From Candidatus Gastranaerophilales bacterium (GTDB lineage: Bacteria; Cyanobacteriota; Vampirovibrionia; Gastranaerophilales; Gastranaerophilaceae), in contig CANPWQ010000011.1 of assembly GCA_947584965.1 (NCBI GenBank), positions 1-46,185 of the forward strand: a DNA stretch of 46,185 nucleotides. The letters run 5' to 3'. This document shows, in pieces, positions 175 to 26,042 of the stretch. The notes under the pieces are model-generated. The model was not told the DNA's origin. It ran no database searches and saw only the letters and a program-made list of their open reading frames with translations. Position 1 is the first letter of the stretch; each line of letters starts with the position of its first letter. Both the position numbers and the translations under genes were made by a program.

Positions 175-717
175 CTAAAGAATTAACCTATTGTAACTTT
201 TATCAATATTATCCTGTTCTATTCCTATATACCGCAAAGTAACGCAGGGTGAAGAATGATTGAATATTTTCTGAAGCATTGCTATATCTTTAAATTTTTT
301 ATAATGATGATATCCGAATGTTTTTCGTAAAGTGTGAGTCCCTACTTTCTCTTTTATTCCCGCACTTTTACAGGCATTTTTTATAATATGATATGCACTA
401 AATCTGTCCAGTCTGTTGTTTCGTGAATTTGTAAATAAAGGCATATTTTCTTTTTTCTCTTTAACATAGTTTTTTATCATTATTTTTAATTTAGAATTTA
501 TTGGAATTCTTTTAAATTTACCTGTTTTTTGTTCTGTTATATAAATATAAGTTTTTGATTTTACATCATTTACATTTAATCTTAAAATGTCTGAAATTCT
601 TAATCCGCAATTAATTCCCAAAGTAAATAATAATAAGTTTCTTTTGTTTTGAGTTTCCAATAATTTTTCAATTTTTTTGATGTCTTTAATTTTTCTGATC
701 GGTTCAACCGTTGTCAT
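175..717 (-). CDS. Minimal tyrosine recombinase / integrase (catalytic domain only)
   Basis: This 180-residue protein is a tyrosine site-specific recombinase of the phage integrase/XerC-D superfamily, which breaks and rejoins DNA through a 3'-phosphotyrosine. All catalytic residues can be seen: R40 (in GLRISD), K64 (in EQKTGK), H128 and R131 (THTLR), H154 (NHSS) and Y163 (LRYIG). The usual N-terminal core-binding (SAM-like) domain is absent, because the protein starts directly at the catalytic domain. XerC/D are normally about 300 residues, so this is a single-domain form as found in some phage and mobile-element integrases. The gene lies 29 bp downstream of trxB on the same strand and could be co-transcribed with it. 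Small inverted repeats lie just beyond its 3' end. Its substrate sites are unknown. Confidence 0.85.
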   Translation of the reverse strand: MTTVEPIRKIKDIKKIEKLLETQNKRNLLLFTLGINCGLRISDILRLNVNDVKSKTYIYITEQKTGKFKRIPINSKLKIMIKNYVKEKKENMPLFTNSRNNRLDRFSAYHIIKNACKSAGIKEKVGTHTLRKTFGYHHYKKFKDIAMLQKIFNHSSPCVTLRYIGIEQDNIDKSYNRLIL

Positions 718-6496: not shown

Positions 6497-6612
6497 TTTT
6501 CTTCTCCGTTATAACTTAGTACAGGAATAAGTATTAAACAGATATTACAATTTGAATATTACTTAAAAGAATAGTTAAAAAAATAATTAGGGATTAGGTC
6601 TTTAAGGTAATA

Positions 6613-6643
6613 AAAAAGAGATTGCAAAATGCAATCTCTTTTT
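6613..6643 (-). terminator. Terminator of the rplJ-rplL transcript
   Basis: A 13-bp perfect stem (6613-6625 with 6631-6643, core GAGATTGC/GCAATCTC) with a 5-nt loop is followed by a T-run on the minus strand. It lies about 310 bp past the rplL stop, on the far side of the GC-rich repeat, so the repeat sits inside the 3' UTR of the rplJL mRNA. Confidence 0.85.
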
Positions 6644-6653
6644 GTTTTTGTTT

Positions 6654-6954
6654 TCTCGGGCTCGGCTGCAGCGGCAGCTTCAAAGTTGGTCTGACTTATT
6701 ATATTTGAGCCCAACTTGGAACCCGCTCTGCGGGTGCTGTCTTGGTTTTTGTTCCATTTCGGCAGAGTTGTTTGCTTCGCTACGCTGTCGCAAACTTTCT
6801 GCCTCAGCGCTTCAGGCTCGCTCACTTCGTTCGGCTTCGCCTTACACAAAAACCGCTGTCTTGAAACTTCTTTCGCTCAAGCCTATCGTTCGTTCGCCTT
6901 CGGCTGTCCTCACTGCGGCTTTCGCAAATCGAACTTCGTTCGCACGAAATTTCG
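6654..6954 (-). repeat. GC-rich repeat block with one inverted copy of the 69-nt core
   Basis: This 300-bp stretch between the rplL stop and its terminator is much richer in GC than its surroundings. Positions 6666-6734 hold a reverse-complement copy of the 69-nt core found three times at 11681-12108, from CTGCAG to CCCGCTCTGCGGG, followed by CTGTCTTGG. The rest (6746-6954) is made of short GCTTCGCT, TTCGTTCG and GAACTTCGTTC motifs that fold on themselves. Open frames across it are not protein-like and I see no gene. The block directly abuts the rplL stop codon. Confidence 0.85.
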
Positions 6955-7329
6955 CTATTTCAATTCAACTGTAGCGCCTGCTGCTTCAAGTTGTTTCTTC
7001 ATAGCTTCAGCTTCTTCTTTTTTAACACCTTCTTTTAAAGGTTTCGGAGCGCCGTCTACTAAGTCTTTAGCTTCTTTTAAGCCTAAGCCGGTAATAGCTC
7101 TAACTTCTTTAAGAACTGCGATTTTGTTAGCGCCTGCTGATGCTAATACAACAGTAACTTCTGATGCTTCTTCAGCTGCGGGAGCTGCACCTGCTGCTGC
7201 GGGAGCTGCTGCAACCGCTACGGGAGCTGCTGCTGATACACCAAATTTTTCTTCCATTGCTTTTACTAATTCTGCTGCTTCAATTAATGTTAATTTTTCA
7301 ATTGATTCTAAAATTGCTTCTACACTCAT
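6955..7329 (-). CDS. rplL: 50S ribosomal protein L7/L12
   Basis: This 124-residue acidic stalk protein recruits and activates translation GTPases. The N-terminal dimerisation helix ([26 protein letters not shown], residues 2-27, given in part as a motif region) is followed by the Ala/Pro/Val-rich hinge (about 35-58). The conserved C-terminal domain contains [20 protein letters not shown], and the protein ends in VELK. Length is normal. It follows rplJ by 60 bp with a good ribosome site. Unusually, rplL is not followed by rpoB; a GC-rich repeat block begins at its stop codon. Confidence 0.98.
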
Positions 7330-7389
7330 TTTATTTCTCCTTTTAATTGTTTTTATTACTTTGCTGTTTGTTACTCTTTTGCAATTTAA

Positions 7390-7911
7390 CTATGCTGTTT
7401 TTTGTTTTGCAACTTGATCCATTGCTCTTACCAAGCTGCTCATTACTGCGTTAACAGCTCCGACTATACCTGTTGCAGGTGAGTTTATGCTGCCAAGTAA
7501 TTTCGCATATAATTCTTCTTTTGACGGAAGATTTGCCAGAACTTCTGTTTCTTTTGCACTTAATAGTTTTCCGTCGAGTACTGATGCTATGATTTCACCT
7601 TTTTTTACATCTTTTATGAATTTAGTTAAAATCTTTGCAGGTGCTACTTCGTCTTGAAAACCAAATGCTATTGCAACAGGTCCTTTTAATGTTTCTGAAA
7701 GAACTTCAAATTGAGTTCCTTTTGAAGCTACTTTTGCTAAAGTGTTTTTTGTTACCATATAGTCGCTGTTTTCTTTTTGCAGATTACGGCGCAGATTTGT
7801 TATTTCCTCTACGGTTAAACCTCTGTATTCGGTAACAACTGCAACTTTAGCCTTTGAAAAATTTTCCTTCATCGCTTCAATTTTTTCTTGTTTAAAGGCT
7901 TTTGTTGACAT
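7390..7911 (-). CDS. rplJ: 50S ribosomal protein L10
   Basis: L10 anchors L7/L12 dimers to the large subunit and usually represses its own operon by binding a leader RNA. The 173-residue protein has the typical N-terminal phrase (VVTEYRGLTVEEITNLRRNL) and MVTKNTLAKVA, with a C-terminal helix for L7/L12 binding. An AAGGAGC site precedes the ATG. Upstream are an L10-type leader, an attenuator and a promoter. The usual rplK-rplA partners do not precede it in this window. Confidence 0.98.
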   Translation of the reverse strand: MSTKAFKQEKIEAMKENFSKAKVAVVTEYRGLTVEEITNLRRNLQKENSDYMVTKNTLAKVASKGTQFEVLSETLKGPVAIAFGFQDEVAPAKILTKFIKDVKKGEIIASVLDGKLLSAKETEVLANLPSKEELYAKLLGSINSPATGIVGAVNAVMSSLVRAMDQVAKQKTA

Positions 7912-7954
7912 TTTTAGCTCCTTATTTGTTTGTTTTATATCGACCTATAAACGT

Positions 7955-7984
7955 AAAAAAAATTTACGTTTTCACCGTAAATTT
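7955..7984 (-). terminator. Attenuator hairpin in the rplJ leader
   Basis: On the minus strand, a 9-bp stem (AAATTTACG/CGTAAATTT; 7976-7984 with 7960-7968) with a 7-nt loop is followed by eight U residues, about 40 nt before the rplJ start. Its place inside the 5' leader makes it an attenuator. Feedback by L10 through the leader is the expected trigger. Confidence 0.75.
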
Positions 7985-8035
7985 ACAAGAATCAATATAA
8001 AAAACAATCCTAAAATTGACTTTAAATATATTTTA

Positions 8036-8110
8036 TCCTCGGTCGGGTGATTTTTAAAAGCTATACACCTTTATTTTTCCTGCATATGCTTCCCGGCTTT
8101 CTACGGCTTT
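8036..8110 (-). ncRNA. L10-type ribosomal protein leader
   Basis: The minus-strand leader contains GCCGTAGAAAGCCGGG near its 5' end and CCCGACCGAGG about 50 nt later. These resemble my recollection of the paired strands and CCGAGG element of the rplJ (L10) leader of Firmicutes. The two halves can pair through the GGG/CCC segments. The position (start at the predicted transcription start, attenuator between leader and gene) fits autoregulation by L10. The family call is from memory and should be tested with a covariance model. Confidence 0.65.
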
Positions 8111-8116
8111 GTTGTT

Positions 8117-8145
8117 ATTTTAAATAAAACATATTTAATATTCAA
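8117..8145 (-). promoter_or_regulatory. rplJ promoter
   Basis: On the minus strand TTGAAT (8140-8145) and TAAAAT (8117-8122) are separated by 17 bp. The predicted transcription start is near 8110, exactly at the 5' end of the L10-type leader. Confidence 0.65.
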
Positions 8146-8268
8146 CTGTTTTTTTATTTTTATTGTTAAGTTTTGTAAATATATATAACTAAATTAGTCA
8201 ATTTAAAGTTAGTATATACGTTTTATATATTATAAGTACGTAGATATTCATAAGAGAAAGAGGATATT

Positions 8269-9177
8269 ATGAAAATAGATTCTAATTCACAATATTATAA
8301 TACTAATTTTTCTGAATGTAGTATTACTTTAAACACTAATAATGTTCCAAAATGCAAAGGTGTTGAAAAATCTAATCCTAATGCTAATCAAGAACCTAAA
8401 ACGTATGAAGTACAAAGTGGTGACTGCTTATGGAACATTGTTAAAAATGAGTATGGTTTAAATAATAGTACGGAAATATCTAATAAAATATATGAAATTG
8501 CTAAAGATAATAATATTAGCAATATAAATTTGATATATGCAGGTAGCACACTTGTTCTTTCAGGGTTATATGAAGACGAAAAACCTGCTGATATTAATGA
8601 AACTGCTTTAAAAGTTGATGAATTTGAAAAGTGGAATTCAACCAAAAATGCTGAAAAATATTTACAGGGTGAGCAAATAGAAGATTTTCAAATGTTTGAT
8701 TTTGAAAATGGGGATTATGAAGAATATTTTTCTAAATTAAAAGATTTTTCTCAAGAATACATTAATAAATATGATAAAGATGGAGATAAATCCTTAAGTA
8801 AAGAGGAATTTATAGAACTAGGAATGTCTGGTATCGATTTTGATAAAGAATATGTTGAATCGTTAGGATATGAGTATAGCGAGGAAACAGCAAAAATGTT
8901 GGAAGATAACCAAAAGTCAATATTGTCTATATTATATAAAGGTTTCAACATGAATGATCAAGAGGGTATTCAAGCCGATGAGTTAGCATCTCAATTCTTA
9001 GTGGCTGATTTTTATGATGATCCGGATGGAAGACCTGATGGAAAAATAAATTTTGAAACATATAATTCCTTTGCATCTAATCCTATTGCTTTTGATGAAA
9101 ATGGGAAAGCGGTAGTTTCAGAAGATTATCTATACCAAGTTTATGATAGAAAAGCATTATGGGAACAAGTTTTTTAA
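8269..9177 (+). CDS. LysM and EF-hand domain protein
   Basis: This 302-residue protein combines a LysM module (about residues 45-97: YEVQSGDCLWNIVKNEYG through AGSTLVL) with an EF-hand loop DKDGDKSLSKEE (169-180). A second, longer Asp/Gly-rich calcium loop lies near 250-263 (DDPDGRPDGKINFE). LysM binds peptidoglycan or chitin-like glycans. There is no classical signal peptide, so how the protein meets its ligand is unclear; it may act in the cytoplasm or use another route. The ATG at 8269 follows an AGAGG ribosome site. Upstream is an AT-rich divergent region shared with the rplJ leader, and a terminator follows. The protein is very acidic. Confidence 0.85.
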   Translation: MKIDSNSQYYNTNFSECSITLNTNNVPKCKGVEKSNPNANQEPKTYEVQSGDCLWNIVKNEYGLNNSTEISNKIYEIAKDNNISNINLIYAGSTLVLSGLYEDEKPADINETALKVDEFEKWNSTKNAEKYLQGEQIEDFQMFDFENGDYEEYFSKLKDFSQEYINKYDKDGDKSLSKEEFIELGMSGIDFDKEYVESLGYEYSEETAKMLEDNQKSILSILYKGFNMNDQEGIQADELASQFLVADFYDDPDGRPDGKINFETYNSFASNPIAFDENGKAVVSEDYLYQVYDRKALWEQVF

Positions 9178-9202
9178 TATTAAAAATATAAAAATAAATT
9201 AT

Positions 9203-9230
9203 AAAGGGCAATCGTTAGATTGCTCTTTTT
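9203..9230 (+). terminator. Terminator of the LysM/EF-hand gene
   Basis: An 11-bp stem with one G-U pair (9203-9213 with 9218-9228, core GGCAATC/GATTGCTC) and a 4-nt loop is followed by a T-run. Confidence 0.85.
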
Positions 9231-9235
9231 GATAT

Positions 9236-9264
9236 TTGCAAAGTTAAACCTTATCTGATACAAT
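9236..9264 (+). promoter_or_regulatory. infC promoter (extended -10)
   Basis: TTGCAA (9236-9241) and TACAAT (9259-9264) are spaced by 17 bp, with TGA directly before the -10 (extended -10, TGATACAAT). The predicted start is near 9271, giving a leader of about 24 nt. Confidence 0.75.
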
Positions 9265-9294
9265 GATAGCGTTACAAATTAGGAGGATAGAAAA

Positions 9295-9816
9295 ATTAGC
9301 AGAGAAAATGGCAGACTTAATGAGCTTTTAAACAGAAATATAAGAGCTAAAGAGGTTAGATTGATTGATGATGAGGGTAATAACCACGGTGTAGTTGCAA
9401 CATCAAAAGCTCTATTAATGGCAGAAGACAAAGGTCTGGATTTAGTGATTGTTTCTCCTAATCAAGAACCGCCTGTTGCTAAAATTTTAGATTACGGTAA
9501 ATACCGTTATGAAGTTGAAAAACGGGCTAAAGAATCTAAGAAAAAACAGCATACCGTTGATATTAAGGAAGTTAAAGTAAGATATAAAATTGATGTTAAT
9601 GATTATAATGTCAAAATCAACAGTATTAAAAAGTTTATAGCAAAGGGAAATAAAGTCAAAGTAGTAGTTATGCTTCGAGGCAGAGAAATGCAGCACTCTC
9701 ACCTTGCTTATGACTTAGCAAACAGATTTTTAACCGACCTTGAGGGTGAAAAACTGACTGTTGAAAAGAAACCCTCCATGGACGGCAGAAATGTTGTTAC
9801 TATTTTAGCTCCGTAG
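9295..9816 (+). CDS. infC: Translation initiation factor IF-3, AUU start codon
   Basis: IF-3 binds the 30S subunit, prevents premature 50S joining and checks the start codon. The protein is 173 residues if translation starts at the ATT codon at 9295. That codon is preceded by a perfect AGGAGG (9281-9286, 8-nt spacing), and the reading frame is closed by a stop at 9280. No ATG, GTG or TTG fits: the first TTG (9361) would remove the conserved N-terminus (REngrLNELLNRNIRAKEVRLID). AUU is the known infC start in many bacteria, where it lets IF-3 repress its own translation. The C-terminal domain contains VKVRYKIDVNDY and KVKVVVMLRGREMQH. The 3' end overlaps the convergent radical SAM gene by 17 bp. 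Confidence 0.96.
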   Translation: MSRENGRLNELLNRNIRAKEVRLIDDEGNNHGVVATSKALLMAEDKGLDLVIVSPNQEPPVAKILDYGKYRYEVEKRAKESKKKQHTVDIKEVKVRYKIDVNDYNVKINSIKKFIAKGNKVKVVVMLRGREMQHSHLAYDLANRFLTDLEGEKLTVEKKPSMDGRNVVTILAP

Positions 9817-10741
9817 TTTCTTCACCTTTTTTTGGTACATATATCCATTCTTCAATCTTTTTGGAAGATACTCCCCACTTCATTCCAAATATTCTGTTTC
9901 TCCAATTACAATATCTGCAAAACGGAATAGGTTTGGCAAGAAAGTTAAGTATCTCTTGGATATTTTGGGCTTTATAAATATCTATTCCGTCACGGTCTGA
10001 AAGCTCTAAATGTTGATTAAAATATTTATTAAAATGTCTTGCGTAAGGTGCCATACAACAAGTATATAATTTCCCTTTTACAAGCTGTATACATATATTT
10101 GAGTGTCCGCATGTTAAAAAACTTTTTCTTGCATTTTGATTTCCGTTTATGTCCAGTGTGTATTTATAAGAAGTTTTTAATGTTTTTTCTCCCGCAAAAA
10201 ATTTTAATTGAACGTCGAATTTTTCACATTTTTCTTTTATTTTTTTCCAATCAATTTTAATTGGGTATTTTGTAGGAGCTAATATAATATTATTTTTGCT
10301 TAATCCCTCAAAAAATGAGTCATCCTGATCAAGTAGTAAAGTACCGTTAGTTATAAATTCTATTCTTGTTTCGGGAAAATACTTTCTTGCTATTTCCGTA
10401 TATTTTACTGCATTAGGATTTAATAAAGGTTCTCCGCCGAGAAGTCTGATTCTAACTAATTGATTTGTTAATTCCGATAATCTTTTTAAATCTTTTTCAT
10501 ATTCTTCTAAAGATAAAAATTCCGGTTCGGCTAAAGTGGAAAAATGTGTGCATCCTTTGCAATTTAAGTTACAATGTTCAGTTAAATGTACTTCTAAATT
10601 AGGTAAGATGACATGAGGTGTTATTTTCATAATATAAGATAGCGGACTTTTTTTAGGTAGTTTCGTTTTAATTCTAAGTCCGAGTATCTTTTTAACTTTG
10701 TGCTCACCTATAATTAACTCGGAATATAAAAAATTATTCAT
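9800..10741 (-). CDS. Radical SAM/SPASM-type protein, probably surface-glycan related
   Basis: This 313-residue protein has the radical SAM [4Fe-4S] motif CNLNCKGC (Cys at residues 57, 61 and 64) and the GGE motif (LLGGEPLLNP). A C-terminal Cys-rich region (TCGHSNIC, YTCCMAP, FCRYCNW) is typical of SPASM/twitch auxiliary clusters. The N-terminal phrase KKILGLRIKTK resembles a short motif common in capsule and polysaccharide gene clusters, so a glycan-modifying role is an inference. I chose the ATG at 10741 because AAAGG lies 7 nt upstream; the ATG 15 bp earlier has no site. The gene lies antisense between infC and rpmI and splits the usual infC-rpmI-rplT operon. Its stop overlaps the end of infC. 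Confidence 0.85.
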   Translation of the reverse strand: MNNFLYSELIIGEHKVKKILGLRIKTKLPKKSPLSYIMKITPHVILPNLEVHLTEHCNLNCKGCTHFSTLAEPEFLSLEEYEKDLKRLSELTNQLVRIRLLGGEPLLNPNAVKYTEIARKYFPETRIEFITNGTLLLDQDDSFFEGLSKNNIILAPTKYPIKIDWKKIKEKCEKFDVQLKFFAGEKTLKTSYKYTLDINGNQNARKSFLTCGHSNICIQLVKGKLYTCCMAPYARHFNKYFNQHLELSDRDGIDIYKAQNIQEILNFLAKPIPFCRYCNWRNRIFGMKWGVSSKKIEEWIYVPKKGEETTELK

Positions 10742-10788
10742 GATTAAACCTTTCATTTTTTTTAATTATAGTTTAAAAATAATTTTAT

Positions 10789-10855
10789 TTGCAATGTAAT
10801 ATTTTTATTCTAAAATATAAAATATAAGGTTTGAGAATGCGGAGGCATGTCGCAT
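10789..10855 (+). promoter_or_regulatory. rpmI-rplT promoter and leader hairpin
   Basis: TTGCAA (10789-10794) and TAAAAT (10811-10816) are spaced by 16 bp, with a predicted start near 10823. The leader then forms a 5-bp hairpin ATGCG/CGCAT (10837-10841 with 10851-10855) about 40 nt before rpmI. In other bacteria L20 regulates this operon through leader RNA; whether this hairpin does so is unproven. Confidence 0.5.
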
Positions 10856-10895
10856 AATCGACCGTTTTGTAAGTCAATTAAAAAAGGAGAAAACT

Positions 10896-11111
10896 ATGCC
10901 TAAAATGAAAACACACCGCAGTGGTGCCAAAAGGTATAAAATTACTGCCGGCGGTAAAATTTTAAGAAGAAAAGCAGGTAAAGGTCACTTACTTCAGCAC
11001 AAAAGTGCATCAAGAAAAAGGAAACTTTCTTCTATGATTGAAGTTTCTGCTACACACAGAAACTTGGTATTAAAAGAACTTCCGTATGCGAAGTGCAGAA
11101 AATCTAATTAA
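10896..11111 (+). CDS. rpmI: 50S ribosomal protein L35
   Basis: This 71-residue basic protein begins with PKMKTHRSGAKRYKITAGGK, the L35 signature, and continues with KAGKGHLLQHKSASRKRKLS. A ribosome site (AAAGGAG) precedes the ATG. It is followed by rplT after 18 bp. infC, its normal upstream neighbour, is more than 1 kb away on the far side of an inverted radical SAM gene, so rpmI-rplT relies on its own promoter. Confidence 0.98.
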   Translation: MPKMKTHRSGAKRYKITAGGKILRRKAGKGHLLQHKSASRKRKLSSMIEVSATHRNLVLKELPYAKCRKSN

Positions 11112-11129
11112 TGAAGAAAGGAATGAATT

Positions 11130-11480
11130 ATGAGAGTTAAACGTGGTAACGTCTTAAGAAAAAGACATAAAAAAATATTAAAATTAGCAAAAGGCTTTAA
11201 AGGCGCAAGAAGCAGAATTTTCAAAGTTGCAAATACTGCAGTTATGAAAAAACTTAAATATCAATACAGAGACAGACGCCATTTAAAAAGAAATATGCGT
11301 CGTTTGTGGATTGTAAGAATTAATGCAGCAGTAAGACAACAAGGGATTAGCTATTCTAAGTTTATGAATGCACTTAAAAAATCTCAAATTACCGTTAACA
11401 GAAAAATGCTTGCTGATTTAGCGGTTAATGAGCCTGATGCTTTTTCAATTATTGTTGAAACTGCAAAATCTGCTAAATAG
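11130..11480 (+). CDS. rplT: 50S ribosomal protein L20
   Basis: L20 is an early assembly protein of the large subunit, and in other bacteria it represses its own operon. The 116-residue sequence has the characteristic [20 protein letters not shown] start and [20 protein letters not shown]. The length is normal. The ATG follows GAAAGGA. A strong intrinsic terminator lies 20 bp downstream of the stop. Confidence 0.98.
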
Positions 11481-11500
11481 AGCATTAAAATTGAATACAA

Positions 11501-11531
11501 AAGAGAACCTTTATAAGGTTCTCTTTTTTTA
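11501..11531 (+). terminator. Terminator of rpmI-rplT
   Basis: A perfect 11-bp stem (11501-11511 with 11515-11525, core GAGAACC/GGTTCTC) with a 3-nt loop is followed by a run of T. Confidence 0.92.
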
Positions 11532-11582
11532 TTAAGAAAATTAATATATAAGAAGTATATATGTTATATATATAATAAAATG

Positions 11583-11677
11583 GGAATAGTAATAATAAGT
11601 CAAATTTCTTTATTACTTATTTTCCTTCACTCCTTTTCTCCATAACAAGACTGTGGTCGCGATGCGACCTTTTTTTT
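11583..11677 (+). ncRNA. Candidate small RNA with CU-rich segment and own terminator
   Basis: This stretch has no open frame but carries transcript signals. A TATAAT lies at 11571-11576 (weak -35), and a textbook terminator lies at 11655-11677 (GGTCGC, GAT loop, GCGACC, eight T). This terminator is separate from the rplT terminator 130 bp upstream. The predicted RNA is about 95 nt. It has a 5' hairpin (AATAAGT pairing with ACTTATT), then an unpaired pyrimidine tract (TTCCTTCACTCCTTTTCTCC) complementary to Shine-Dalgarno sequences, then the terminator stem. This layout is typical of trans-acting small RNAs. No expression evidence is available. Confidence 0.5.
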
Positions 11678-11680
11678 GCG

Positions 11681-11749
11681 CCCGCAGAGCGGGTTCCAAG
11701 TTGGGCTTAAATATAATAAGTCAGACTAATTTTGAAGCTGCCGCTGCAG
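11681..11749 (+). repeat. 69-nt structured repeat, copy 1
   Basis: This copy runs from CCCGCAGAGCGGG to CTGCCGCTGCAG. Internal hairpins are CCCGC/GCGGG with an AGA loop at the left, and GCTGC/GCAGC at the right end (it uses the base after the core). The middle (TTGGGCTTAAATATAATAAG) is almost invariant between copies. It is followed by GAGCCCGAGGGAGCAACAAC. It begins directly after the T-run of the candidate small RNA. Confidence 0.9.
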
Positions 11750-11849
11750 CCGAGCCCGAGGGAGCAACAACCCGACCGAGTGCAAAAAAACGTTAGTTTT
11801 TTGTAACGAGGTTGCAGGGGTTGTGCGAACAGGAAAATCCAAGACAGCA

Positions 11850-11918
11850 CCCGCAGAGCGGGTTCCAAGTTGGGCTTAAATATAATAAGTCAGTCCAATT
11901 TTGAAGCTGCCGCTGCAG
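11850..11918 (+). repeat. 69-nt structured repeat, copy 2
   Basis: This copy has exactly the same length as copy 1 and differs at only a few positions (GTCC instead of GACT in the middle). It is preceded by CCAAGACAGCA, shared with copies 3 and 4. It is followed by a second CGCAGAGCGG hairpin and a GAGCGAAGCGG-rich spacer up to about 12030 that has no gene. Confidence 0.9.
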
Positions 11919-12039
11919 TCCGCAGAGCGGATTTGAGCGAAGCGGAACGCCGAAGTTGCGCCGAAAAAATGAGCGAAAATTTTGCGAAAGCAAAATGCAG
12001 CGAATGTGTTGAAGGCGTGAAGCAAAAACCAAGACAGCG

Positions 12040-12108
12040 CCCGCAGAGCGGGTTTCAAGTTGGGCTCAAATATAATAAATCAGACCAATTTTGAAGCTGC
12101 CGCTGCAG
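12040..12108 (+). repeat. 69-nt structured repeat, copy 3
   Basis: This copy has the same length and ends, with CTCAAATATAATAAATCAG in the middle. It is preceded by CCAAGACAGCG and followed by CGCAGGGCGG and the same GAGCCCGAGGGAGCAAAAAC tail as copy 1. Copies 1-3 are spaced 169 and 190 bp apart. The array ends about 90 bp before the 3' end of the small gene at 12196-12462. Confidence 0.9.
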
Positions 12109-12195
12109 TCCGCAGGGCGGAGCTGTGCGAAGCGAACGAGCCCGAGGGAGCAAAAACCCGACCAACTCAAAAACAGTATTTTATATCCCGAAAAA

Positions 12196-12462
12196 CTACA
12201 TTTTAACATTAAATGTGGAGGTAGGCTGCCCCTCACGCATTACCTGCCCAAGCGCATATATTTGCGCATTATAATTATTAATTTCTCTTGCGACTTCACC
12301 TGAAAAAACTTTATCATGTTCATCAAGATAATTTAAAAACGGATTTACGGAAATATTTTCAATTTCCTGTTTAACAACTTTTTGAACTTCCTGTATAGTT
12401 TTTTTCGGAATTGCTATATTTATTCCGAAAGGGTTATTTGATATAAAATTATTATTTGTCAT
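12196..12462 (-). CDS. Small hypothetical protein (88 residues)
   Basis: I do not recognise this protein. It has a hydrophilic N-terminus rich in Asn (TNNNFISNNPFGINIAIPKK), a central charged helix (about residues 22-60) and a C-terminal segment GQVMREGQPTSTFNVKM. There is no signal peptide or membrane segment. It has codon use like its neighbours, and AAGGAA lies about 9 nt upstream of the ATG, so I think it is real. It is divergent from the membrane-protein gene at 12609, with a 146-bp promoter region between them. Its 3' end faces the repeat array, and no terminator is obvious behind it. Confidence 0.6.
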   Translation of the reverse strand: MTNNNFISNNPFGINIAIPKKTIQEVQKVVKQEIENISVNPFLNYLDEHDKVFSGEVAREINNYNAQIYALGQVMREGQPTSTFNVKM

Positions 12463-25438: not shown

Positions 25439-25726
25439 TTATGCAATTTTTAAATTAAAACCCAATGTTTTTAATATTTTAGCTAAAGTGTCAACTCTGG
25501 GTACTCTTTCGCCATTGAATATCTGATATAACATAGCTCTGTCAATTCCTGCCTTTTCACAAAAGCCCGATATACTATCTCTTGATTTAATAACTAATTC
25601 CAACGAACGGAAAAACGCATTAAAATCACCGTCATTAATATATTCTGCAAGGCTTTCATTCATATATTCTTTTTGAAATTCTATATCTTTTAATTGTTCT
25701 ACTATAAAATCATTAAGTTCAGTCAT
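25439..25726 (-). CDS. Antitoxin, HTH-type (HigA-like addiction module antidote)
   Basis: This 95-residue protein resembles the putative addiction-module antidote family. The N-terminal half (residues 1-50) is helical (FIVEQLKDIEFQKEYMNESLAEYI). Residues 55-90 form an XRE-like helix-turn-helix: ISGFCEKAGIDRAMLYQIFNGERVPRVDTLAKILKTLG. It would neutralise the toxin encoded one base upstream and bind its operator. Toxin-first order is typical of higBA-type modules. The stop of the toxin and start of the antitoxin are 1 bp apart, so translation is coupled. The gene ends with no obvious terminator. Confidence 0.9.
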   Translation of the reverse strand: MTELNDFIVEQLKDIEFQKEYMNESLAEYINDGDFNAFFRSLELVIKSRDSISGFCEKAGIDRAMLYQIFNGERVPRVDTLAKILKTLGFNLKIA

Positions 25727-25727
25727 T

Positions 25728-26042
25728 TTAATTATCCTTTATATTTTGTAAATAACTTTTTGCTATTGCTATATCTTTTTGTTGGTCTGATTTATCACCC
25801 GCATAAAGCAATATTACAACTATGTCATTTTTTATTGTGTAATAAATTCTATATCCCTTGCCGAAAAAGAAACGCAGTTCGTATAAATTAGGGGCTATTT
25901 GTTTATAATCACCGAAATTATCATCATAAATTCTTTCCAATCTTTTAACAATTTTTACTCTAGTGCTTAAATCAAGAGATAAAAGCCATTCCTTTACGGG
26001 TTCTTTTTCATTTTCAAGTTTATAAAATTTTATTTGTTTCAT
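25728..26042 (-). CDS. RelE/ParE-superfamily toxin (Gp49/HigB-like)
   Basis: The 104-residue protein matches the phage-derived Gp49-like / HigB toxin family. It shows EPVKEWLLSLD, VKIVKRLERIYDDNFGD, then LYELRFFFGKGYRIYYTIKND, then VVILLYAGDKSDQQKDIAIAK. These toxins cut mRNA on the ribosome. The start codon sits only 6 nt after the last base of a consensus -10, with no ribosome site, so the mRNA is probably leaderless or nearly so. It overlaps no other gene and is followed by the antitoxin gene after 1 bp. Confidence 0.9.
   Translation of the reverse strand: MKQIKFYKLENEKEPVKEWLLSLDLSTRVKIVKRLERIYDDNFGDYKQIAPNLYELRFFFGKGYRIYYTIKNDIVVILLYAGDKSDQQKDIAIAKSYLQNIKDN

Follow-up and report, generated by a model that had tools for sequence, protein, structure and literature searches.

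To our knowledge, those short bacterial repeats for which a mover is known depend on an insertion-sequence transposase or on its RAYT relatives. REPINs are doublets of inverted palindromes (PMC3116915, in excerpt), and the resemblance of the repeats analysed here to REPs and REPINs lies in short extragenic palindromes, two hairpins that may be inverted to each other, a position downstream of genes, tandem arrangement and the supply of TAG stop codons (excerpts of PMC3733652 and PMC3116915). BOX elements of streptococci are modular stem-loop repeats that are thought to be parasitic; separable modules in variable tandem number are a likeness by description, not by sequence (PMC3049150, in excerpt). 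The hosts differ, and the edges at stop codons and T-runs described below are observations on our repeats. Group IIC introns insert right behind intrinsic terminators, as some of our repeats do (PMC8919778, in excerpt), and Rickettsia palindromic elements and CGTC REPs are likewise palindromic repeats without a dedicated transposase (PMC3733652, in excerpt). With MITEs, the repeats have in common that they are small, non-coding, structured, apparently non-autonomous and nested by insertion.

The DNA under study is a contig of a Candidatus Gastranaerophilales bacterium (GCA_947584965.1, contig CANPWQ010000011.1), and "the window" denotes the whole stretch of 46,185 nt. The genome (G000) comprises 1.73 Mb in 74 contigs and is 94.6% complete. 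We read the repeats found in Gastranaerophilaceae as a new family of non-autonomous mobile stem-loop repeats with MITE- or REPIN-like anatomy, in which a 69-nt element is one module, and give this reading as a whole a probability of roughly 0.58. No movement was observed directly, and mobility is suggested by genome comparison. The units work like REPINs, MITEs or BOX elements, and the searches for a RAYT, for REP tags and for group II intron signatures, given below, found no link to those systems. The repeats occur across a family of gut bacteria, often base-exact at stop codons or terminators of busy genes, and the genomes carrying the 69-nt element have no match to the Y1 transposase. No description naming this repeat family was found in the literature covered, most subscription journals lying outside its scope, and the literature on Gastranaerophilales and Melainabacteria yielded nothing on intergenic or palindromic repeats of this kind.

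The 69-nt element and its fold

The preliminary description had placed four copies of the element in the window, and re-reading of the sequence finds them there, each exactly 69 nt long. Copy 1 (11681..11749, plus strand) carries hairpin 1 at 11681-11693 and hairpin 2 at 11737-11749, the latter closed by base 11750. Copies 2 (11850..11918) and 3 (12040..12108) follow on the same strand, as seen from sequence and BLAST, and copy 4 (6666..6734, minus strand) is on the same strand as rplL and downstream of it, with two longer repeat units between the stop codon and the copy. The other three copies are 97, 96 and 94% identical to copy 1 (BLAST, E 1.4e-27 to 7.4e-25). Their GC content is raised as described (0.48-0.52, versus 0.333 for the whole window), and the proposed end hairpins CCCGC-AGA-GCGGG and GCTGC-CGCT-GCAG are present. 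The exact conservation of length is confined to the window; elsewhere the length is only roughly constant. By model bounds, 89 of 141 elements measure 68-70 nt and another 10 measure 80-82 nt. An assembly artefact or chance similarity hardly deserves credit: several copies do lie near contig ends of draft genomes, but the same element recurs at orthologous sites in many genomes, and E-values between copies go down to 1e-27.

Counted on 46 distinct copies, the structure consists of hairpin 1, a middle stem and hairpin 2, with 97.0%, 83.6% and 97.4% of the cells paired, respectively. The covariation score of the whole structure is 0.252 versus 0.145 in shuffles (none of 500 reaches 0.252; the shuffles ignore kinship), and it is only 0.024-0.080 in a control with the same 46 copies in which the partners were slid. 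Two-sided changes are frequent at three pairs: one of hairpin 1, where C-G has become G-C in 13 of 46 copies, while the other two, with 22 and 6 of 46, belong to hairpin 2. Two further measures are not clearly above the shuffles (pairs with double changes, 78/500; further pair types, 87/500). Both end hairpins covary in this test, which the preliminary description had called for, and the middle stem is weaker. Its proposed pairing of GTTGG with CCAAY draws support from the paired cells, but the three-helix form is the best single fold in only two of the four window copies (sense strand, z -2.1 to -3.1), and RNAalifold, given the 46 copies, predicts the two end hairpins and no middle stem. Folds of the opposite strand gave z -2.6 and -0.6 for two copies.

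As part of the preferred reading, the 69-nt element would be a non-coding module composed of a hairpin, a conserved AT-rich loop on an imperfect stem, and a second hairpin. The AT-rich loop around TATAATAAGT is unpaired, yet it is among the most conserved parts of the element, which hints at a sequence-specific binder.

Mobilisation as a REPIN by a RAYT, a Y1 HUH transposase, would agree with two hairpins around a partly self-complementary middle, with extragenic places downstream of genes, with tandem copies and with the lack of any visible target duplication, and the REPIN anatomy described in the excerpt of PMC3116915 is close to that of the 69-nt element. On the other hand, the two end hairpins are unlike each other in sequence and loop. 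No REP tag is conserved either. As for the terminal inverted repeats of MITEs, the arms TTCMAAGTTGG form inverted repeats, but these are subterminal. The tag counts are as follows: among the flanks of 141 elements (either strand), GTAG occurs in 6 left and 2 right flanks and CGTC in 8 left and 2 right ones, the latter count also separating the element from Rickettsia palindromic elements and CGTC REPs. REPs and REPINs further differ from the 69-nt element in that the latter has a conserved AT-rich loop and nests with a second, longer family. An integron attC reading was dropped, as the orientation of the motifs presumably does not fit.

Covariation would also be expected of a host-functional cis RNA with hairpins that serve in stabilising or processing highly active mRNAs at their 3′ ends and are kept in place by selection. 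Selection on the transcribed RNA alone should, however, produce a clear preference for G-U over A-C mismatches. Such an excess was sought in the end hairpins of 139 unique copies and not found, with expectation alone as the yardstick: G-U and A-C stand at 17:18 in hairpin 1 and 15:10 in hairpin 2, together 32 versus 28 (middle stem 99:78). The near-equality in the end hairpins therefore singles out nothing as selection on RNA, and it fits equally well with constraint at the DNA level or with correction of imperfect palindromes. Rfam contains no family that matches the window at gathering score (cmscan), which also disposes of a known RNA family as candidate. Overall, of the REP/MITE-like or RNA element first proposed, the REP/MITE-like side is borne out in that the element is dispersed, structured and present in many copies with covarying end hairpins; a link to RAYT/TnpA, REP tags and a constraint specifically at the RNA level did not emerge.

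Longer stem-loop units around the element

The 69-nt element is one module of a larger population of stem-loop units of about 90-220 nt that begin with GC and end with CAAGACA. The initial description took it as the unit; at many sites it lies as a module within the longer units or next to them. The plus-strand array of the window consists of GC, the 69-nt element, a tail and CAAGACA, and this succession occurs twice before copy 3 follows. We infer composite unit 1, with copy 1, to extend over 11678..11846, and composite unit 2, with copy 2, occupies 11847..12036. On the minus strand, the final base of the rplL stop codon (TA|GC) is also the first base of a long stem-loop unit (6857..6955), which ends with CAAGACA. 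A second one (6738..6856), with the outer stem GGTTTTTG..CAAAAACC, has the same end. A model built from 34 long units (R2) matches the two at 6856-6954 and 6737-6855. Other long units around copies have outer stems such as GGTTTTTGC..GCAAAAACC, followed by CAAGACAGC. These units also account for the flanks that the copies had been said to share: a longer unit terminates on the right with CCAAGACAGC, and some of the units contain in their interior a stretch of which GAGCCCGAGGGAGC is a variant.

The outer stem is 99.3% paired over the 34 units, with a covariation score of 0.693 versus 0.217 in shuffles (0/500). Its 271 cells comprise 265 Watson-Crick pairs, 4 G-T and 1 A-C, and the inner helices contain 14 G-T and 6 A-C among 306 cells. 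R2 matches occur in all 41 genomes of the genus, with 1 to 90 each, and in 139 of 191 genomes of the family sample, in 33 of 41 genera (own genus included, with nine genomes). Outside the genus, one to three matches are all that many genomes have, and some of these are weak and possibly false.

Units are discrete, and they occur nested and in tandem. By automatic assignment, the left flanks of 141 69-nt elements are a CAAG tail in 47 cases (at least one of which is really the rpsN stop codon), the inside of a long unit in 34, another copy in 8, a stop codon in 8 (at least one spurious), a T-run in 3, and other sequence in 41. Head-to-tail copies have a period of 69-70 nt, and in tandem long units CAAGA is separated from the following GC by 0-2 variable bases. 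In genome G007, a long unit or its remnant lies inside the 69-nt element, between GGATTA and AATATAA (L183:4395-4521, L184:14753-14888, L188:3059-3183); shorter copies retain only GCTTCAAGACA at that place. Judged against the uninterrupted copies, this fits with an insertion in which no base was duplicated, provided that the unit runs from GC to CAAGACA. At the rplL site, one unit has been gained or lost as a whole: the closely related genomes G034 and G025, which have the same rpsH protein, differ by exactly one unit, extra in G034 and seamlessly joined (AAATA|GCGCCCGCAG versus AAATA|GCGAAATTTCG..CAAGACA|GCGCCCGCAG). No target duplication is visible at the sites examined. An immediate direct repeat is lacking around 107 of 141 copies of the 69-nt element, the others being 31 with 2 nt, 2 with 3 nt and 1 with 5 nt, and no clean empty site was found for the 69-nt element alone. 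The scarcity of direct repeats is a difference from MITEs, as are arms that pair but vary between copies and a parent transposon that is not known.

According to the preferred reading, what moves would be the whole GC-to-CAAGACA stem-loop of about 90-220 nt, whether or not it includes the 69-nt element; these bounds are seen at two kinds of site and would apply generally. Insertion would leave no visible target duplication and would favour the transcribed strand; units would frequently come to lie between stop codon and terminator or just behind the terminator, and often behind very active genes. They would then multiply locally as tandem arrays, presumably by recombination, and insert into each other. 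Movement would require an enzyme acting in trans, not of the Y1/RAYT type in the genomes studied. The recurrent sites at rplF, rpsN, rplL and groEL may be old single insertions with units exchanged later. A host role of the units in mRNA stability is possible.

In loci L338-L343 (G020, G036, G001, G035, G023), a tRNA-like stretch CGGGATGTAGCGCAG..CTGCCGAGC precedes long units, possibly as a composite with a tRNA relic.

Unit edges at stop codons and terminators

In the window, the arrays begin at two kinds of edge. The stop codon TAG (6957-6955) of rplL (50S ribosomal protein L7/L12, 6955..7329, minus strand) is the left edge of one array. The three-copy array begins directly behind the T-run of an intrinsic-terminator-like hairpin (11655..11677, plus strand; hairpin 11655-11669, eight T at 11670-11677), and the nearest called gene upstream is rplT (50S ribosomal protein L20, 11130..11480, plus strand). 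Being oriented with these two genes, which are about 5 kb apart on opposite strands, the arrays go with transcription and not with replication, provided that no origin is situated between them.

We classified the left flanks of long units in two samples. The first, chosen for nearness to 69-nt elements, contained 78 candidate units with 61 unique left flanks, and these were automatically assigned as 24 tandem, 14 stop codon, 8 T-run and 15 other. On reading, the tandem rows L085, L088 and L220 are really rpsN stop codons, L099, L158 and L173 among the other rows are the rpmJ stop codon, and a few other rows resemble coding sequence. The stop codons at these edges belong to rplF, rpsN, rplX, rplL, rpmJ, groEL, dnaK, fusA and pilO and, in genomes that lack the 69-nt element, to rpsH and rplR. 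Gene identities come from searches for rplL, rplT, rplJ, nusG and a semialdehyde dehydrogenase; by their translations we take the others to be rplF, rpsN, rplX, rpsH, rplR, rpmJ, groEL, dnaK, fusA, obgE, sdaA and pilO.

The second sample was drawn from the R2 matches; of the 56 in 40 stretches, 46 were used, weak and truncated ones being excluded. It gave 12 tandem, 7 stop codon, 1 T-run and 26 other edges; 26 of the 34 non-tandem units begin neither at a stop codon nor at a T-run. Its stop edges, at groEL (twice), rplX, fusA, rplJ, nusG and a semialdehyde dehydrogenase, all read TAG followed by C. Given how densely genes are packed in the window, an intergenic position picked at random, strand included, would have a chance of about 0.0036 of being the base behind a stop codon, so that 7 of 34 is far above chance. 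In other genera, where 33 of 39 matches were used, a stop codon is the edge of 6 of 31 non-tandem units, and 25 of 31 start at neither stop codon nor T-run; several of the remaining rows have one common flank, which indicates that the units there sit in another repeat.

The base composition of the junctions was surveyed at two genes. For rplL (28 of 30 loci used, G024 left out), the stop codon is TAG in 28 of 28, with a unit directly behind it in 15 and none in 13. TAG is followed by T in all 13 unit-free genes and by C in 13 of the 15 that have a unit, hence the C of TAGC arrives with the unit at rplL. For groEL (28 of 30 loci used, one not read and one cut), TAG is found in 19 of 20 genes with a unit or remnant versus 3 of 8 without (p 0.003). 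Over all genes of the fetched loci, the stop codon is TAG in 24 of 40 with GC-rich sequence behind the stop versus 54 of 369 others (p 1.2e-9, rows not independent). This excess is compatible with insertion as TA|GC, which itself makes a TAG, or with a preference for TAG. GTAG REPs are reported to supply, in many cases, the TAG stop of flanking ORFs (PMC3733652, in excerpt), a point in favour of the REPIN alternative.

Sequence-specific insertion at (T)AGC or A|GC, combined with selection against insertions inside genes, is a tentative alternative that merits attention; the pattern at stop codons would then result from TAG being a legal target. It draws on the TAG excess at array-adjacent stops and on the commonest left flanks of 28 non-tandem units, which are TAGC (8), GAGC (4) and TAAC (4), but the T behind TAG in all unit-free rplL genes argues that TAGC is not the native site there. 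It is compatible with our preferred reading, and under it the edge rule would be nothing unusual.

In other bacteria, RNA 3′ ends occur at stop codons. An RNA-templated spread, in which the RNA of a unit is copied and joined to RNA 3′ ends (the U-tract of a terminator, or an mRNA cut at the stop codon) and the cDNA then recombines into the gene, would explain left edges at TA|GC of stops and at T-run|GC, the sense bias, the highly expressed genes, the lack of visible target duplication and the variable bases between tandem units. We nevertheless hold it to be improbable: the end hairpins lack a G-U excess, most long units outside the first sample are not at stop codons or T-runs, and reverse transcriptases show no matching distribution (see below). 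A broader version, with family-wide repeats that insert seamlessly at the RNA 3′ ends of busy genes (stop TA|GC or U-tract end), on the sense strand, RNA-linked and without Y1 or DDE transposase, is to be viewed with much doubt. The idea of RNA ends does account together for the sense bias, the busy genes, the seamless joins and both kinds of edge, and target sequence (TAG or A|GC) and RNA 3′ ends both remain candidates for the edge rule.

The positions of the 69-nt element were analysed by a cmsearch of 80 sources with 224 matches, the best 150 of which represent 143 distinct elements plus opposite-strand doubles and fall into 103 clusters (genes called by us). Where the genes on both sides of the gap point the same way, 45 clusters are in sense and 7 in antisense orientation; of the others, 17 follow a gene in a convergent gap, 8 are located in divergent gaps, and 26 have no neighbour on one side. 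These rows are not independent, because many sites are common to related species. Arrays are often found on the sense strand behind busy genes, e.g. rplL, rplF, rpsN and groEL. The sense bias, the places behind ribosomal protein, groEL, dnaK and fusA genes, and the orientation of the window arrays with two opposite transcripts would also speak for the host-functional RNA introduced above. It is weakened by the balanced mismatches, by 21 of 41 genus genomes that lack the element, and by the varying kind and number of units at one site between species, and we consider it unlikely.

Overlap between the element and a called gene was seen in 1 of 103 clusters, a further difference from Rickettsia palindromic elements and CGTC REPs. 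The 63-nt copy concerned (L181:3069-3131, minus strand) is in an open frame of 225 aa with only a weak, below-cut-off domain match, and it may be intragenic or lie in read-through upstream of the start codon.

T-run edges also occur at terminator-like hairpins without a called gene end, e.g. upstream of obgE and sdaA. Such hairpins with T-runs, without a called gene ending on that strand, are seen at L100:3040-3080, L097:5540-5616 and L134:2600-2708; they possibly mark small RNA genes that lack annotation and have repeat arrays at their 3′ ends. ARAGORN detected no tRNA or tmRNA in ten array-bearing loci. In most of the rplF-rplR gaps shown (L208-L237), a conserved stretch like GCCAATATRAACCCTT..AAGAAGGTTYGGGTGAAAGG, resembling a leader hairpin, precedes rplR. 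Just upstream of rplJ, window positions 7989-8124 (minus strand) match the L10 ribosomal protein leader below threshold (34.5 bits versus a gathering score of 44, E 0.0065), plausibly as a divergent L10 leader.

Distribution and candidate enzymes

The search of the own genome proposed in the preliminary description was productive. BLAST with copy 1 found 12 places, and a covariance model from the 46 copies (R1, own-genome copies included) gave 20 rows with E up to 1, which represent 14 clear places with E<1e-7, four opposite-strand doubles and two weak matches. BLAST matches occur in 16 of 98 genomes, own included and all within the genus, and R1 matches in 20 of 41 genus genomes, own included. 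In the family sample, R1 matches are found in 3 of 191 genomes; as nine of these 191 belong to the genus, the 69-nt element is found in 0 of 182 genomes of other genera (the setting used limits scoring to 26 candidates per genome). Genome contigs scanned with a sequence pattern yielded 17 stretches, all titled Candidatus Gastranaerophilales, from isolates named Lapin, which we read as rabbit gut. G014 and G030 contain divergent look-alikes in the rpsN-rpsH gap, though R1 finds no match there. The distribution within the genus is patchy, with element-bearing genomes scattered over a marker tree (936 columns, 29 genomes). These short-marker trees give no support for a single origin and leave the distribution unsettled.

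Two enzyme families, PF01797 and PF00078, were surveyed across genomes, and no mover was found among them. The REP-associated transposase that had been suggested as a partner did not turn up: PF01797 (Y1 transposase) has no match in the 20 element-bearing genomes versus 11 of 21 without the element (11 of 41 genus genomes in all, these being drafts; Fisher p 1.6e-4, kinship uncorrected). With the dissimilar end hairpins and the lack of a conserved GTAG or CGTC tag, this sets the element apart from REPs and REPINs, and mobilisation by a RAYT appears very improbable. A reverse transcriptase (PF00078) has no match in the own genome and is patchy elsewhere, with 9 of 20 element genomes versus 6 of 21 others (p 0.34; 15 of 41 in all), which speaks against RNA-templated spread. 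Group IIC introns are distinguished by the same absence from the own genome, by the length of 69-220 nt and by the Rfam search of 6500-12300, where cmscan with E up to 1 gave four matches, none of them an intron.

Spread by viruses or plasmids was not supported: one pattern for the 69-nt element and two for long units retrieved 0 stretches from viral contigs, and window positions 6666-6954 had no match at E 1e-5 in plasmid and phage records. Near the start of the contig, the window codes for a small tyrosine recombinase (PF00589, 180 aa; 178-717, minus strand), a candidate mobiliser. The window also contains a toxin-antitoxin-like pair (25439-26042, minus strand), made up of a Gp49-like protein (PF05973) and an HI1420-type antidote (PF21716).
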